This document shows positions 6,621 through 43,785 of a stretch of DNA of 64,000 nt, piece by piece. Positions within the stretch are counted from its first letter, which is position 1; every line of letters begins with the position of its first letter. The notes below the pieces were generated by a model. The model did no database searches and was not told the DNA's origin. It was given only the letters and a program-made list of their open reading frames with translations. Position numbers and translations under genes: made by a program. The stretch covers positions 1-64,000 of the forward strand of contig NZ_AFGF01000056.1 of NCBI RefSeq assembly GCF_000219125.1, in the 5' to 3' direction. The DNA is from Acetonema longum DSM 6540 (GTDB lineage Bacteria > Bacillota > Negativicutes > Sporomusales > Acetonemataceae).

Positions 6621-6892
6621 TGTTGTAAAATGCATCTGCAGCCTCGAATCTGGGACCGTTCAAAAAGGTTCAGATGCTGGGCGCGACGAGGACGGGCGTG
6701 AGACTGTACGTTCGGAGGGTACGTCGATACTAGAACGATGCGAAGCATCGTGAGATCAGGAAGAAAACAAATCACCTTTTGCCGTAGTCACAACAAAAGG
6801 CTACTGTAATCTGAGTCCAAAAGGGAGGATGTTTTCCGAATGAGCCCGCCCGCAGGAGCAACAACGCAGATGGATCTTTTTCAACGGTCTCC
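6621..6892 (-). repeat. modular palindromic repeat, copy A (reverse orientation, compound)
   Basis: Fills most of the 443-base lonB-lonA gap. It opens with the reverse complement of the family tail (GCAGCCTCGAATCTGGGACC). The arm CCGTTCAAAAAGGTTCAGATGC follows near 6655-6677, and the opposite arm TTTTTCAACGGTCTC lies near 6878-6892. The inner part carries the GACGAGGACGG / ACTGTACGTTCG module shared with copy F, plus about 100 extra bases including the small hairpin CGATGCGAAGCATCG. No gene is evident here. Confidence 0.8.
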
Positions 6893-6918
6893 TACGGTTA
6901 CCAAGAGGGGGATACCTG

Positions 6919-25667: not shown

Positions 25668-26085
25668 TGCCGGTTTGTCTCTGGAGTTTACTTTGCACGG
25701 CGCAGACTTTGAATTAGCCGGCGCCGCTTCCAGTAAAATAAAGCGAATCCTGCAGCAGGTCGGAGTCAAATCTGACGTGATCCGCCGCATTGCCATCAGT
25801 TCCTATGAGGCGGAAATGAATGTGATTATTCACGCTTATCACGGTGAAATGAGAGTTAGCATCTATCCTAACCGGACTGAAATCACCATTGAAGATGAAG
25901 GGCCGGGTATCCCGGATATTAAACTGGCCATGCAGGAAGGATATTCTACCGCCTCCGACCATATTCGGGAATTGGGTTTTGGCGCCGGTATGGGATTGCC
26001 GAATATAGCCCGCTGCTGTGATGCCTTTGAGATTACATCGGAAGTCGGGAAGGGGACTAGGATCTATATGATGATCCTCCACTAG
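25657..26085 (+). CDS. anti-sigma-factor-like ATP-binding (HATPase_c) protein
   Basis: 142 residues. GHKL ATPase motifs: N-box SYEAEMNVIIHAY, G1 EDEGPGIPD, G2 GFGAGMGLPNIA. It resembles RsbW/SpoIIAB serine kinases but is encoded with DRTGG and hydrogenase-like genes, so it probably acts as a kinase or ATP-dependent switch in a redox signalling module. The start with AAGGAG lies inside the previous gene. Confidence 0.85.
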   Translation: MKADAGLSLEFTLHGADFELAGAASSKIKRILQQVGVKSDVIRRIAISSYEAEMNVIIHAYHGEMRVSIYPNRTEITIEDEGPGIPDIKLAMQEGYSTASDHIRELGFGAGMGLPNIARCCDAFEITSEVGKGTRIYMMILH

Positions 26086-26224
26086 GAGACCGTTGAAAAA
26101 GGCCCATCTGCGTCGTTACTCCTGCGGGCGCGCGCTTGCCGTACCCTGCGAACGTACTGTCTGCGCGCGCGTCCTCGTCGCGCCTAGCATCTGAACTTTT
26201 TTGAACGGTCTCATATTCGAGGCC
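26086..26224 (+). repeat. modular palindromic repeat, copy D
   Basis: Begins at the HATPase stop. Left arm GAGACCGTTGAAAAAGGCCC. The inner module contains GCTTGCCGTACCCTGCGAAC and GTACTGTCTGCGCGCGCGTC. Right arm AGCATCTGAAC then TTTTTTGAACGGTCTC, and the tail ATTCGAGGCC. Nearly identical to copy G. Confidence 0.9.
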
Positions 26225-26228
26225 CCAG

Positions 26229-27602
26229 TTGTATGACAAAACTTCGTGGACAGAGGGGGTGGAGGCTATTAGTGAATACTTTCATTCTGTGCGGCTGATA
26301 GCGGAGCGCTGCAAGGGATGTGTGAATTGTATCAAACATTGTCCCACGGAAGCGATTCGCATTCGCGGCGGCAAAGCCCGGATCACGGAATCCCGCTGTA
26401 TAGACTGCGGCGAATGTATCAGGCGCTGCCCGAATCATGCCAAGACAGCTGTTACTGACTGTTTGGAACATATTAAACAATACCCATTTAATGTGGCCTT
26501 GCCGGCGCCTTCCCTGTACGGACAGTTTAATTCCGATGTGACTATTGAGAAAATTCTTGAATCTTTATTGCAAGTGGGATTTGATACAGTTTTTGAAGTC
26601 GCCTTGGGGGCGGATATTGTTTCCCGTGCCATTGCCGAATACTTAAAACGGCCGGATATTAAAAGGCCGGCCATATCTTCCGCCTGCCCGGCGGTAGTGA
26701 GGCTGGTGCAGGTGCAGTTTCCGGAATTGATTGATCATTTAATACCCATTGATGCGCCGGTAGAAGTTTCCACCCGCATTGCACGGGATGAAGCTGTTAA
26801 ACGAACCGGACTGGCGCCGGAGAACATCGGTGTTTGGTTTATTACCCCCTGTCCGGCCAAGATGACCACAGTAAAACAGCCGTTGGGATCGGAAACATCC
26901 AATATTTCCGGGGCAATCGGCATTTCTGAGATTTATGGGGACTTGCTCAGAGCGTTTCCTGACTGCAACGGTGGCCAAAAATTGCGGCGAGCTTCTCCGG
27001 CAGGTATCGGCTGGGCTCTCTCGGGCGGTGAGGTATCAGCCGTACAGGCTGCCAAAGCGTTGGTGGTTAATGAAATTGAAAGTGTCAACGGGGTGCTGGA
27101 ACAGGTTGCCTTAGGCAAACTTAAAGAAGTGGAGTATATTGAGTGCTTATCCTGTGCCGGAGGCTGTATTGGCGGACCTCTGACCGTGGAAAGCCGATTT
27201 GTAGCCCAATACCGTATGCAGCAGCGGGTTGATGGGAAGATGAACCCGGATGCTATTGGAAATTTGTCGGTGAATGTGGATTACGCTGCAGTTTTAGGAG
27301 GGGATGAACGACGGGTGATTGAACCGCGTCCGGTCATGCGGCTGGATGAAGATATTTCCAGGGCTCTATATAAAGTGGAGGTCATGGAAGACACACTAAA
27401 AAGACTGCCCGGATTAGACTGCGGCTCCTGCGGTTCCCCTAACTGCAAAGCATTAGCTGAGGACATTGCTCAGGGAACAGCCTGTGAGACCGATTGCCTT
27501 TTTAAACTGCGGGAGAAGGTAAGGGATTTAGCCCGGGAAATGGTTGAAGTGGCGGACAGACTGCCGCCGCCCCTGGTCAAACAATCAGGCGATGAGTCTT
27601 GA
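26229..27602 (+). CDS. sensory-type [FeFe] hydrogenase-like iron-sulfur protein (HydS-like)
   Basis: About 457 residues. Two [4Fe-4S] motifs (CKGCVNCIKHCP, CIDCGECIRRCP) are followed by an H-cluster-type domain with SSACPAVV (Cys153), TPCPAK (Cys208) and CLSCAGGCIGG. A C-terminal four-cysteine Fe-S domain (LDCGSCGSPNCKALAED) follows, then a short helix. The single Cys in the first motif and the absence of a small-subunit tail are features of group C/D sensory hydrogenases rather than catalytic enzymes. No PAS domain is present, so group D-like. Start uncertain: TTG 26229, or GTG 26259 which follows GAGGGG directly. Confidence 0.82.
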   Translation: MYDKTSWTEGVEAISEYFHSVRLIAERCKGCVNCIKHCPTEAIRIRGGKARITESRCIDCGECIRRCPNHAKTAVTDCLEHIKQYPFNVALPAPSLYGQFNSDVTIEKILESLLQVGFDTVFEVALGADIVSRAIAEYLKRPDIKRPAISSACPAVVRLVQVQFPELIDHLIPIDAPVEVSTRIARDEAVKRTGLAPENIGVWFITPCPAKMTTVKQPLGSETSNISGAIGISEIYGDLLRAFPDCNGGQKLRRASPAGIGWALSGGEVSAVQAAKALVVNEIESVNGVLEQVALGKLKEVEYIECLSCAGGCIGGPLTVESRFVAQYRMQQRVDGKMNPDAIGNLSVNVDYAAVLGGDERRVIEPRPVMRLDEDISRALYKVEVMEDTLKRLPGLDCGSCGSPNCKALAEDIAQGTACETDCLFKLREKVRDLAREMVEVADRLPPPLVKQSGDES

Positions 27603-28713: not shown

Positions 28714-28730
28714 CCACTATACCGGCAGGG

Positions 28731-28870
28731 GTCGTTGAAAAAGGCCCATCTGCGTTGTCAGGTCTGCGAGAGCGCGCTTGCCGTACCCTCGCGAACGTAC
28801 TGTCTGCGCGCGCTTTCTCGACCTTCCTAGTATCTGGACCTTTTTGAACGGCCCCGGATTTGAGCCGCAG
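28731..28870 (+). repeat. modular palindromic repeat, copy E
   Basis: 17 bases after the PHP stop. Arms GTCGTTGAAAAAGGCCC and GGACCTTTTTGAACGGCCCC. The inner part contains the CTTGCCGTACCCTCGCGAAC hairpin module nested within GCGAGAG / CTTTCTCGACC flanks, then tail GATTTGAGCCGCAG. Confidence 0.9.
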
Positions 28871-28901
28871 ACGATCTTTGCAATCGAAGGAGGAATAGAT
28901 C

Positions 28902-38968: not shown

Positions 38969-40798
38969 ATGATCGTACAACGTTTTATACACCGTCTGGA
39001 TACGTTAAGTATTGTTGTCGTTGTAATTTTTATTGCATTGATCAGTCGATTGGGCTATTTGCAGGTGGTGCAGGGAAAATATTATGAACGTTTGGCCGAT
39101 GGAAATCGTATTAAAATGATTCCCATCCATGCTCCCCGGGGAATTTTCTATGATCGGAACGGCGTGGCGCTGGTGTCCAATCGGCCCGGCTTTACGGTTT
39201 CGATTGTGTCCACGAATAAAGAGGTGCCGGATACAATCATTGATAAGCTGGCCGAGCTCTTGGAAATGGACCGGCAGGAGATCGTCGCCAAGCTAAAACG
39301 CCGCCAGGACTCCTATGAGCCTGTTCCGATAAAAATCGATGTGGGACAGGATGTGGTAGCTAAAATTGAAGAGCGGCGCGGGGAATTACCGGGTGTCGTT
39401 GTGGAGATCCAGTCGGTGCGCAACTATCTGAATAAGGAATACGCCGCCCATCTTTTCGGCTATGTCAGTGAAATTGACGATTTGGAACTGGCCAGACTGA
39501 AAGCGATTAAATATAAGCAGAGCGATCTGATCGGTAAATTTGGCCTGGAGAAGGTTTATGACCAGGATTTGCGCGGGGTAGACGGCGGCGGCCAGGTGGA
39601 AGTGGATGTGAATGGACGTCCGGTCCAGGTGCTGGGGAAACAGGAACCGGTGCCGGGGAATAATCTGGTATTAACCATTGACTGGAGAATTCAGACGGCG
39701 GCCGAGACCACGATCGATGAGCATCTCCGGTGGCTGCAAACCGCGTATAAAAAGCCAAATGCTAAAGCCGCGGCGGCAGTGGTGATGAATCCCAAGACAG
39801 GGGCGGTTTTGGCCATGGTCAGCCGGCCGGCTTTTGATCCCAATTTGTTTGCCGTGGGAATTTCCACGCAAGATTGGAAAGCATTGAGTGAAAATCCGTT
39901 TCACCCTATGACAAACCGGGCTATTGCCGGGGAATATCCCCCCGGCTCTCTTTACAAAATCGTAACCAGCACAGCGGCGTTGGAACTGGAGAAAGTAACA
40001 CCGGAAGAGAAAATCCTCGATAAAGGTACACACTGGCTGATTCCTAAAAGCAACTCTCAGGGCGAAGCATTGGGCTGGATCAATTTTCATACGGCATTGT
40101 CCATGTCTGATAATGTTTATTTTTACGAAATGGGCAATCGCCTGGGAATTGATGCTTTGGAAAAGTATTCACGGATGTTCGGCCTGGGAGAAGTCACCGG
40201 CATTAATCTACCAGGCGAGTCAGAAGGATTGGTCGCCAATCAGCGCTATAAACAACAGGTGTATGGTGAAAGCTGGTATTTATCGGAAACCTTTGATGCG
40301 GCTATCGGCCAGGGATTTCAACTGGCTACGCCGCTGCAAATGGCTTCTCTGGTCAGCCAGATCGCCAACGGCGGGCACCGATACCGGCCTTATTTAGTAA
40401 GCCGGATGACTTCGCCTGACGGTAAGGTGATTAAAGCGTTTGAACCGGAAGAAATGGGCCGTATCAAAATTACCGATAAAAATCTCAACATTATCCGGCA
40501 GGCCTTACATGAAGTATCCCGGACCGGTACGGCAGCCTATATTTTTGGCGATTTTCCGCTTTCTCTGGCCGGTAAGACAGGAACCGCTGAGAATTCCCAC
40601 GGTATGGATCACGGTTGGTTTGCGGCTTATGCTCCGTTTGAGGACCCGGGTCTGGTGGTAGTGGTTATCGTTGAGCAGGGCGGCTTTGGCTCAGTGTCTG
40701 CCGCGCCTATTGCCAAACGGATTATGGAAGCGGCCTTTAATCTGACCCAAAATCTGGATTATGTGCCGAGGGTGTATGGTCCGCATACCGCATTGTAA
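38969..40798 (+). CDS. mrdA: penicillin-binding protein 2 (peptidoglycan transpeptidase MrdA)
   Basis: 609 residues. N-terminal membrane anchor (LSIVVVVIFIALISRLGYL), pedestal/dimerisation domain, and transpeptidase domain with SxxK (PPGSLYKIV), SxN (SMSDNVYFY) and KTG (LAGKTGTAE). It works with RodA, encoded downstream, in elongasome wall synthesis. It ends at the edge of a repeat copy. Confidence 0.95.
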   Translation: MIVQRFIHRLDTLSIVVVVIFIALISRLGYLQVVQGKYYERLADGNRIKMIPIHAPRGIFYDRNGVALVSNRPGFTVSIVSTNKEVPDTIIDKLAELLEMDRQEIVAKLKRRQDSYEPVPIKIDVGQDVVAKIEERRGELPGVVVEIQSVRNYLNKEYAAHLFGYVSEIDDLELARLKAIKYKQSDLIGKFGLEKVYDQDLRGVDGGGQVEVDVNGRPVQVLGKQEPVPGNNLVLTIDWRIQTAAETTIDEHLRWLQTAYKKPNAKAAAAVVMNPKTGAVLAMVSRPAFDPNLFAVGISTQDWKALSENPFHPMTNRAIAGEYPPGSLYKIVTSTAALELEKVTPEEKILDKGTHWLIPKSNSQGEALGWINFHTALSMSDNVYFYEMGNRLGIDALEKYSRMFGLGEVTGINLPGESEGLVANQRYKQQVYGESWYLSETFDAAIGQGFQLATPLQMASLVSQIANGGHRYRPYLVSRMTSPDGKVIKAFEPEEMGRIKITDKNLNIIRQALHEVSRTGTAAYIFGDFPLSLAGKTGTAENSHGMDHGWFAAYAPFEDPGLVVVVIVEQGGFGSVSAAPIAKRIMEAAFNLTQNLDYVPRVYGPHTAL

Positions 40799-40800
40799 GG

Positions 40801-40955
40801 GGGCCGTTGAAAAGGGCCCATCTGCGTCGTTGCTCCTGCGGGCACGCGCTTGCCGTACCCTCTCGAACGTACTGTCTGCGCGCGCGTCCTCGTCGCGCCT
40901 AGCATCTGAACCCTTTTGAACGGCCCCAGATTCGAGGCCGCAGGTGAGCTTTCGC
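40801..40955 (+). repeat. modular palindromic repeat, copy G
   Basis: Two bases after the mrdA stop. GGGCCGTTGAAAAGGGCCC left arm, GCTTGCCGTACCCTCTCGAAC inner module, CTAGCATCTGAACCC / TTTTGAACGGCCCC right arm and GATTCGAGGCCGCAGGTGAG tail. It occupies most of the 317-base gap before minD; arm sequence differences (CCC/GGG versus CC/GG) are compensated on both sides. Confidence 0.9.
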
Positions 40956-41115
40956 GAGGGTGTGTTTTAGTTTTCTGCATAAACAAGCAGGAATATATAT
41001 AGTTAAGACGAATTTGTCCCAATAGAGATGAGTACACGAGATACGCACACAAGATAATCTCCGAAGATATTTCGGTTGAGAAGATGTGAGATGTGATGGG
41101 CTGAGGAGGATTTGC

Positions 41116-41907
41116 ATGGGGGAAATTTGGGTGATCACCTCGGGTAAGGGAGGTGTCGGCAAGACCACAACCACTGCCAATTTGGGCACTGGTTTTGCTC
41201 TCATGAAGAAAAAAGTAGTGTTGGTAGATGCCGATATTGGCCTGCGTAATCTGGATGTGGTCATGGGTTTGGAAAATAGGATCGTCTATGACCTGGTCGA
41301 TGTTACTGAGGGGAATTGTCGTCTAAAGCAGGCCTTGATCCGGGATAAACGTTTTGAAACACTGTATCTTCTGCCGGCGGCCCAGACCCGCAATAAGAAT
41401 GCAGTCAGTCCGGACCAGATGCAGCATCTGTGCAAGGAACTGGCTGAGGATTTTGATTATGTCCTCTTGGATTGCCCGGCCGGTATCGAGCAGGGATTCA
41501 TGAATGCCGTAGCCGGCGCAGAAAAAGCCATTGTGGTTACTACGCCGGAAGTCTCAGCTGTAAGGGATGCAGACCGGGTTATTGGTATCTTAAGCTCTGA
41601 GGGGAAAGTGAATCCCAAATTAATCATTAACCGGATTCGTCCTAAAATGGTCAAGAAGGGCGATATGATGGATATTGACGATATTATCGATATCCTGGCA
41701 GTAGATCTGGTCGGCATTATTCCCGAAGATGAATACATCATTATTTCCACTAACCGGGGTGAGCCGGCGGTGGTCAATTCTACGTCTCTTGCCAGTATGG
41801 CGTACAGAAATATAGTTCGGCGTCTTATGGGACAAAATGTACCTTTCCTGATGTTGGATCGTGATGACGGTTTCTTTGGTAAAATCAAAGGAATGCTTAA
41901 AATGTAG
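41116..41907 (+). CDS. minD: septum site-determining protein MinD
   Basis: 263 residues. Deviant Walker A KGGVGKTTTTANLG, switch regions DADIGLRNLDVVMG and LLDCPAGIEQG, and a C-terminal amphipathic membrane helix (FFGKIKGMLKM). The ATPase binds membrane in the ATP form and is driven off by MinE. ATG at 41116 follows GAGGAGG. No minC is present next to it. Confidence 0.96.
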   Translation: MGEIWVITSGKGGVGKTTTTANLGTGFALMKKKVVLVDADIGLRNLDVVMGLENRIVYDLVDVTEGNCRLKQALIRDKRFETLYLLPAAQTRNKNAVSPDQMQHLCKELAEDFDYVLLDCPAGIEQGFMNAVAGAEKAIVVTTPEVSAVRDADRVIGILSSEGKVNPKLIINRIRPKMVKKGDMMDIDDIIDILAVDLVGIIPEDEYIIISTNRGEPAVVNSTSLASMAYRNIVRRLMGQNVPFLMLDRDDGFFGKIKGMLKM

Positions 41908-41917
41908 GAGGATTGAC

Positions 41918-42379
41918 ATGCGGGAACTTTTTAGCAAGATCTTTGGAAAAGAACATGATAACATTGGATCAAAAGACATCGCCAAGGATCGCTTGCGCAT
42001 GGTCCTGGTACATGACAGAAAAGAAGCTTCGCCGCAGGTCTCAGAATACAGGGGGGTAGACATGCTGGACCTTTTCCATAAGATTTTTGGGAAAGAACAA
42101 GAATCCGGATCGAAAGATATTGCCAAAGAACGTCTGCGCATGGTCTTGGTGCATGATCGGGCCAATGCTTCACCGCAGTTCATGCAAAATCTCAAAGATG
42201 ATATGATCCAAGCGATATCGCATTATATGGACATTAATGAAAAAGATATGGAAATCAACCTGTCCCAGGATAACGACTCAGTGGCGCTGGTGGCTAACAT
42301 ACCGGTCAACCGGATGAAGCGGGTCATCGCGGAACAGTCTGGCCAGCGGAACGATTCAGATTCAGGCTGCGATGCGTAA
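41918..42379 (+). CDS. minE: MinE with tandem-duplicated N-terminal (MinD-binding) segment
   Basis: 153 residues versus about 85-105 for usual MinE. Residues 1-48 and 49-96 are two copies of the N-terminal segment: each has LFxKIFGKE (membrane-targeting helix), GSKDIAK and RLRMVLVHDR, the MinD-contact region. About 31 of 47 aligned positions match. Only the second copy continues into the dimerisation domain (FMQNLKDDMIQAISHYMDIN). ATG at 41918 follows AGGAGG. A second in-frame ATG at 42062 has GGGGGG six bases upstream and could make a normal 105-residue MinE. Confidence 0.9.
   Translation: MRELFSKIFGKEHDNIGSKDIAKDRLRMVLVHDRKEASPQVSEYRGVDMLDLFHKIFGKEQESGSKDIAKERLRMVLVHDRANASPQFMQNLKDDMIQAISHYMDINEKDMEINLSQDNDSVALVANIPVNRMKRVIAEQSGQRNDSDSGCDA
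42050..42064 (+). promoter_or_regulatory. possible internal ribosome binding site in minE
   Basis: AGGGGGG followed five bases later by in-frame ATG (42062-42064) at exactly the boundary between the duplicated segments. It would allow a conventional-length MinE from the same mRNA. Confidence 0.45.
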
Positions 42380-42414: not shown

Positions 42415-43521
42415 ATGTTAAATCATCGTCTGGTAAGAAACTTAGACTTTGTTCTCATTGCCGTTACCTTATTAATCATTGCAATCAGTCTGATTTTTAT
42501 CGGCAGTGCTACCCATATTAACTCGTCCATAGAGGACAGGTATTGGTATGTGCAGCGGCAAGGCGCTTTTGCTCTGATCAATATTATTGTTGTATTCTGG
42601 CTGTTGCATTACGACTATAAGTCCCTGGGGAAAATGGCGCATGTGCTGTACGGAATTAATCTGGTCATGCTGCTGGCGGTTATGTTGATAGGGCAGTCAG
42701 CCTTGGGAGCGCAACGTTGGATTCAGATTGGCCCGATCAGTTTGCAGCCTTCTGAATTTTCCAAGCTGATCATGATTATTTCGCTGGCTCATATCCTGGA
42801 TAAGCGGTCAGGACAACTGAACACGATGAAAGATGTACTGCCGATTTTTATTTATGTGGGCATCCCGTTCCTCCTGGTCTTAAAACAGCCCGATTTGGGA
42901 ACAGCTCTGGTGTTTATGGCCATATTGTTCGGTATGCTTTTTATTGCCGGGATTAGGATGCAGCTGTTGGGCAAGATTGTCGGAGCCGGGATTGCCTTTC
43001 TGCCGATTTTCTGGTTTTTTCTGAAGGATTACCAGAAAAAGCGGCTTACCGTATTCATGGATCCGGGGACTGATCCGTTAGGTTCAGGCTACCATATCAT
43101 TCAGTCCAAAATTGCCATCGGGTCCGGTATGCTCTATGGAAAAGGCCTTTTTAGCGGCACCCAGAGCCAATTGAACTTTTTGCCGGAAAACCATACGGAT
43201 TTTATTTTCGCCGTCATAGGAGAAGAAGTAGGGTTCATCGGTTCGGTACTGGTATTGGCGTTATATATGCTTTTGCTGTATAGAGGCGTCAAAATCGCCG
43301 GAGCAGCCCGTGATAATTTTGGGACGCTGCTGGCAGCCGGAATTGTTTCGATGCTGGCCTTTCACTTATTGGTCAATGTGGGTATGACCGCCGGCATTAT
43401 GCCGGTTACCGGTATTCCTCTGCCACTGATGAGTTACGGCATCAGCGCCCTAACGACGAATATGGTCAGTTTGGGTATTTTACTGAATATCTATATGCGA
43501 CGACAAAAAATTATGTTTTAG
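42415..43521 (+). CDS. rodA: rod shape-determining protein RodA (SEDS glycosyltransferase)
   Basis: 368 residues, about ten membrane helices. SEDS motifs: GAQRWIQIGPISLQPSEFSK, KQPDLGTALVF, ENHTDFIFAVIGEEVGF and GIPLPLMSYG. It polymerises lipid II with PBP2. It follows minE by 35 bases. Confidence 0.96.
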   Translation: MLNHRLVRNLDFVLIAVTLLIIAISLIFIGSATHINSSIEDRYWYVQRQGAFALINIIVVFWLLHYDYKSLGKMAHVLYGINLVMLLAVMLIGQSALGAQRWIQIGPISLQPSEFSKLIMIISLAHILDKRSGQLNTMKDVLPIFIYVGIPFLLVLKQPDLGTALVFMAILFGMLFIAGIRMQLLGKIVGAGIAFLPIFWFFLKDYQKKRLTVFMDPGTDPLGSGYHIIQSKIAIGSGMLYGKGLFSGTQSQLNFLPENHTDFIFAVIGEEVGFIGSVLVLALYMLLLYRGVKIAGAARDNFGTLLAAGIVSMLAFHLLVNVGMTAGIMPVTGIPLPLMSYGISALTTNMVSLGILLNIYMRRQKIMF

Positions 43522-43640: not shown

Positions 43641-43764
43641 TTGTTGCAAAACTTATCTGCAACCTGGAATCTGGGACCGTTCAAAAAGGTCCAGATGCTA
43701 GGATGGCCGAGAAAGCGCTCTCTCGCTGGCCTGACAACGCAGATGGGCCTTTTTCAACGGTCCC
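43641..43764 (-). repeat. modular palindromic repeat, copy H (reverse orientation, short)
   Basis: Reads in reverse: family tail TTGTTGCAAAACTTATCTGC, then GGACCGTTCAAAAAGGTCC, inner GCCGAGAAAGCGC, and GGGCCTTTTTCAACGGTCC. Compared with copy E it has the same flanks but lacks the central CTTGCCGTACCC hairpin module. Confidence 0.88.
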
Positions 43765-43785
43765 CTGCTGGCGGAGGTCGATGGT

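Follow-up and report, generated by a model that had tools for sequence, protein, structure and literature searches.

What kind of MinE is encoded by a gene with two N-terminal heads, and what would such a protein do in a genome where minC cannot be found? MinE is a division-positioning protein, and MinC is the Min partner that normally blocks division. The question is raised by a minE gene of Acetonema longum DSM 6540, a relative of Sporomusa, lying in the 64,000-nucleotide stretch of DNA analyzed here (the window). The favored reading, with a probability of about 0.55, is that the gene encodes a genuine MinE that arose by an in-frame tandem duplication. It would probably belong to a MinDE system free of MinC, would bring additional MinD-contact and membrane segments, and may exist as two isoforms.

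A MinE with two heads

The 153-aa product matches TIGR01215 at 89.5 bits (cut-off 49.3) and PF03776 at 114.9 bits (cut-off 25), each profile in two separate stretches. Heads 1 and 2 (Table 1) share 30 of 39 aligned residues; their local alignment score is 142, whereas none of 1000 shuffles exceeds 47, and head 2 as a query against the entire genome retrieves head 1 at E=2.5e-13. The first-pass annotation of this DNA correctly placed the gene at 41918–42379, with a repeat of about 65% identity over 48 residues, and its description of two heads joined to one dimerisation domain is confirmed by the alignment score and the paired profile matches. MinE usually has one head per subunit and about 80–100 aa, a norm from which this protein departs in both respects. 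The other features of MinE, namely the profile score, the membrane-targeting sequence (MTS), the contact segment and the dimerisation domain, are all present, the dimerisation domain as judged by sequence match and a low-confidence model. In this AF2 model, the dimerisation domain consists of a helix (86–104) and two strands (112–117 and 122–130), and the top structure matches include the solved MinE structures 2kxo and 6u6p, although at a pLDDT of 57 the AF2 models are too uncertain for placing head 1 or its fold. Judged from sequence, the ORF is a genuine natural MinE variant with a tandemly duplicated head. An Rfam search of the region returned zero families.

Table 1. Features of the Min region (positions in the window)
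Feature	Position	Strand	Remarks
mrdA (PBP2)	38969..40798	+	TIGR03423
mrdA–minD spacer	40799..41115	+	317 bp; minC slot of relatives, without minC
minD	41116..41907	+	TIGR01968, 406.7 bits
Duplication unit, copy 1	41896..42039	+	end of minD, Shine-Dalgarno (SD), minE codons 1–40
minE	41918..42379	+	153 aa, two heads; ORF with strong SD before ATG 41918
Head 1	41918..42037	+	residues 1–40; membrane-targeting helix and MinD-contact segment; aligned with head 2 and 22 relatives
Linker VSEYRGVD	42038..42061	+	from minD tail, minE leader and SD
Duplication unit, copy 2	42040..42181	+	nucleotide alignment with copy 1
Internal SD AGGGGGG	42050..42056	+	before ATG 42062
Head 2	42062..42178	+	residues 49–87; possible second start of translation, from which a 105-aa MinE would be made
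Single topological-specificity/dimerisation domain	42179..42325	+	PF03776 best stretch 65–130
C-terminal extension	42326..42376	+	17 aa past the MKR end; relatives stop about 5–7 residues after MKR
rodA	42415..43521	+	TIGR02210

The repeat reaches back beyond the coding start. Before head 1 stands CTTAAAATGTAGGAGGATTGACATG, which comprises the end of minD, its stop codon, the SD and the ATG; it matches CTCAGAATACAGGGGGGTAGACATG preceding head 2 with mainly transitions between them, and the linker DNA differs from 41890–41920 at 7 of 22 nt, again predominantly by transitions. The duplicated unit is thus about 141–144 bp long and contains the last codons of minD, the ribosome-binding site, the ATG and the first 40 codons of minE. 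Since the open frame of minE has 175 codons, of which 22 precede the start, the two copies could be joined in frame. In a tree of 57 heads, most of which is poorly resolved, heads 1 and 2 are sisters with support of 100/94, and both have Met in RLRM, which is found in none of 55 other MinE proteins. MinE of G001, the only other genome of the same family, has one head. The two heads therefore come, most simply, from a single lineage-specific duplication after the lineage of the window genome split from that of G001. The DNA copies of the heads are 75% identical over 75 nt, and 14 of the 28 codons that encode the same residue in both heads and allow synonymous change differ. This level (50%) is close to the mean of 55% obtained when head 2 is compared with MinE from other genera and families, and these values make a recent duplication, or a simple duplication in assembly, unlikely. 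The annotation's view that the duplication is old and is not an assembly artefact is in line with these figures.

The search of Negativicutes suggested in the annotation has been carried out, and among the 249 MinE-bearing genomes (of 380) no two-headed MinE is found except that of the window genome. Nor is a second case found among 28 genomes of the order, or in a phylum sample of 398 genomes, of which 322 have MinE. Several genomes have two matches: those of G260 lie on two contigs, those of G529 are parts of one gene broken across two contigs, and in the remaining double-match genomes they are separate paralogous genes. In the part of the literature covered, neither a two-headed MinE nor a naturally MinC-less bacterial MinDE system is reported. 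The two-headed form is apparently unique to the lineage of the window genome.

Loss of minC and divergence of MinD and MinE

In relatives, the gene order is mreC-mreD-mrdA-minC-minD-minE-rodA, and of 24 reference loci all but one have minC immediately 5' of minD (23 loci), the exception (L048) being the record of G020. At this locus minC is missing from both the window genome and G001, and in neither genome is MinC found with the MinC_C profile or with full MinC proteins as queries; the only MinC_C match in the window genome is below the threshold and falls on another contig, within a frame of 476 aa. Loss of the gene from the locus, together with the lack of a homologue in the genome, points to a MinC-less Min system, a context missed by the annotation. 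Eight of the 249 MinE-positive genomes have no MinC match. Three of these (G050, G128 and G244) were set aside, as their minE is so close to a contig end that minC may fall outside the assembly, and G019, which is 72% complete with a rearranged locus, is weak evidence for loss. On these sequence searches, the absence of MinC is convincing in the window genome (G000), G001 and G016, and probable in G020.

Divergence was measured as mean identity to 15 MinC-bearing references. The values for MinE are 70.7, 61.9 and 61.1 in G000, G001 and G016, respectively (reference range 74.5–82.8), and those for MinD are 81.5, 74.8 and 75.2 (86.3–90.4). For the neighbouring RodA they are 78.1, 79.9 and 80.5 (78.8–84.3), and MrdA, at 68.4–71.9 in the same genomes, is somewhat low yet inside its range (65.1–78.3, 11 references). 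MinD and MinE of these three genomes thus fall outside the reference range while RodA hardly does, so that the two Min proteins appear to have diverged more than their neighbour. Of the four MinC-less genomes whose locus was checked, three would therefore combine MinC loss with divergence of MinD and MinE. This is not universal, since G020, which lacks minC at the locus, has ordinary MinD and MinE; the genomes being few and related, the link is an association and no proof of cause.

Some minor features of these loci were also recorded. A dispersed imperfect-palindromic repeat of about 150–155 bp, MITE-like or REP-like, occupies the first part of the mrdA–minD spacer (40798–40952), and further full or partial copies occur in the window at 26084–26231 (90.6%), 28728–28879 (82%), 6633–6893 and 43648–43766. 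The copy in the minC slot could be a scar or an agent of minC loss. In G020 (L129) and G016 (L130), the mrdA–minD interval has no minC and carries a small frame and one of about 670–680 aa that resembles a molybdopterin oxidoreductase. The MinE of G001 (L055/L128) is divergent and extended by about 44 aa at the C-terminus.

Constraint on the heads and the internal start

Between the two heads, dN is 0.18 and dS is 1.5, a dN/dS of about 0.12 (a rough value from 39 codons) indicating that both heads are under purifying selection, as the annotation had held. The IAK(D/E)RL core and every class-invariant MinD-contact residue are present in both. Head 1 keeps the class-invariant M1, F9, S18, A22, R25, L26, V29, L30, H32, D33 and R34, which cover the MTS and the contact segment. 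Its first departure from the class-invariant residues, N83 to E36, lies past the contact segment, near the end of the region corresponding to the E. coli 13–31 peptide. The annotation would have given up its proposal if one head had carried inactivating changes at the contact residues; none is seen in head 1. The two heads nevertheless differ in rate. With tip branches of 1.0 for head 1 and near zero for head 2 in the tree of 57 heads, head 1 evidently evolves much faster. Its MTS is less hydrophobic than that of head 2, and its amphipathic moment is 0.45 as against 0.58 for head 2 and 0.58–0.71 for three Negativicutes comparison sequences. Faster change and the weaker moment suggest that head 1 may be only partly functional.

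Because the duplicated unit includes the SD and the ATG, head 2 retains a strong ribosome-binding site of its own, from which a one-headed MinE of 105 aa may also arise. The predicted anti-SD duplex is -11.4 kcal/mol at the start of head 2 versus -10.2 at that of head 1, the internal SD places its ATG close to the top 1% of those in the window, and the G run of this SD is unpaired in the predicted local fold. In the SD and ATG, 12 of 15 bases are unchanged; the chance probability of this varies with the assumed neutral identity, from 0.0005 to 0.09. The short form on its own matches TIGR01215 at 70 bits. A one-headed MinE is thus plausible as a second product, and it could combine with the long form into mixed dimers of two to four heads.

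Possible action of the two heads and other readings

The MinC and MinE sites on helix 7 of MinD overlap, and the latent MinE dimer buries both the MTS and the contact helix (PMC6803595). The MinD residues named in that work occur in the present MinD, where S147, D153 and I158 of helix 7 correspond to S148, D154 and I159 of E. coli. The long MinE would dimerise via its single C-terminal domain, and such a dimer would carry up to four membrane-targeting helices and up to four MinD-contact segments; the annotation had proposed four contact segments per dimer, with a possible effect on oscillation wavelength or membrane affinity. As the latent dimer has room for two buried contact strands, each subunit should have at least one head that stays exposed, which would increase recruitment by membrane-bound MinD and lower the barrier to activation. 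Initiation at the internal start probably supplies some one-headed MinE, and the resulting mixed dimers would have from two to four heads. The MinD–MinE pair would run without MinC, so that there would be no MinC for MinE to displace from their common site on MinD. The minimal activator of the MinD ATPase is MinE(13–31); in reconstitutions, patterns return when an MTS is added to this peptide or when it is made to dimerise, and they then differ in wavelength and type (PMC6922632). It is conceivable, as a tentative extension of the favored reading, that one gene supplies a MinC-free MinDE oscillator with two MinE isoforms, in which the number of heads per dimer (two to four) tunes the length or stability of the pattern.

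In vitro, MinDE waves pattern FtsA-anchored FtsZ without MinC (PMC9262947). The present system likewise has MinD and MinE without MinC, but MinC was omitted by design there, whereas the present genome lacks it and no FtsA is detected. The SHS2 domain of FtsA (PF02491) is found neither in the window genome and G001 nor in the MinC-bearing G012, so the FtsA-based route may not apply; DivIVA is present in all three, which may use a tether of FtsZ other than FtsA.

Some of the same evidence can be read otherwise. Head 1 might be a remnant that is tolerated or decaying, with the 105-aa MinE from ATG 42062 as the functional product and the two-headed form as a by-product. The internal SD equals the upstream one in strength, all tip-branch change of the head pair falls on head 1, and the MTS is less hydrophobic there. 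However, an unconstrained copy at a dS of about 1.5 would have lost its 77% amino acid identity, its open frame and the class-invariant contact residues, and a strong SD precedes the upstream start as well, so that this is rather improbable. A similarly low probability is assigned to a near-neutral novelty, in which MinC loss relaxed the constraint on MinD and MinE and the duplication was fixed with little change of function. The divergence of both proteins in MinC-less G000, G001 and G016 would fit this, as would the presence of G001 and G016, along with the poorly determined G019 and G050, among the longest MinE head branches; purifying selection nevertheless persists on both heads, independent losses are few, and one of the genomes without minC at the locus (G020) has ordinary MinE and MinD.

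That the second head is an artefact of assembly or sequencing would be suggested by its occurrence in one draft genome of 295 contigs, with no second genome having two heads. At the DNA level, however, the copies share only about 75% identity, the differences being mostly synonymous and transitions, and both lie inside a 105-kb contig, which makes such an error very improbable.

A functional two-headed MinE, which remains the favored reading, resembles known systems in part. Like E. coli and N. gonorrhoeae MinE, it has an MTS, a contact segment with the IAK(D/E)RL core and a dimerisation domain, and its gene adjoins minD; unlike them, it has tandem heads, an internal start, a 17-aa C-terminal extension and no MinC partner found. 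In engineered MinE(1–31) and MinE(13–31) fused to GFP or leucine zippers (PMC6922632), the valency of the contact segment is likewise changed, and head 1 closely matches MinE(1–31), although here the additional head is natural and in cis with a complete MinE. Some Bacillota, for example the f50 genomes, also have more than one MinE head per genome owing to paralogous second MinE genes; these are separate complete genes, whereas here the two heads are in one protein. The valency, latency and membrane binding of MinE are variables that have been engineered in vitro to study Min pattern formation, and a natural two-headed MinE without MinC offers a ready test of whether added contact segments alter the wavelength. 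The lineage is also a test of how far MinC constrains MinD–MinE evolution, and the link between MinC loss and faster change of MinD and MinE can be tested across genomes. As a minor feature of the MinD partner, its C-terminal helix (41860–41904) ends in ...GFFGKIKGMLKM, the ending in many relatives being KKxFGF or KKxLGF.
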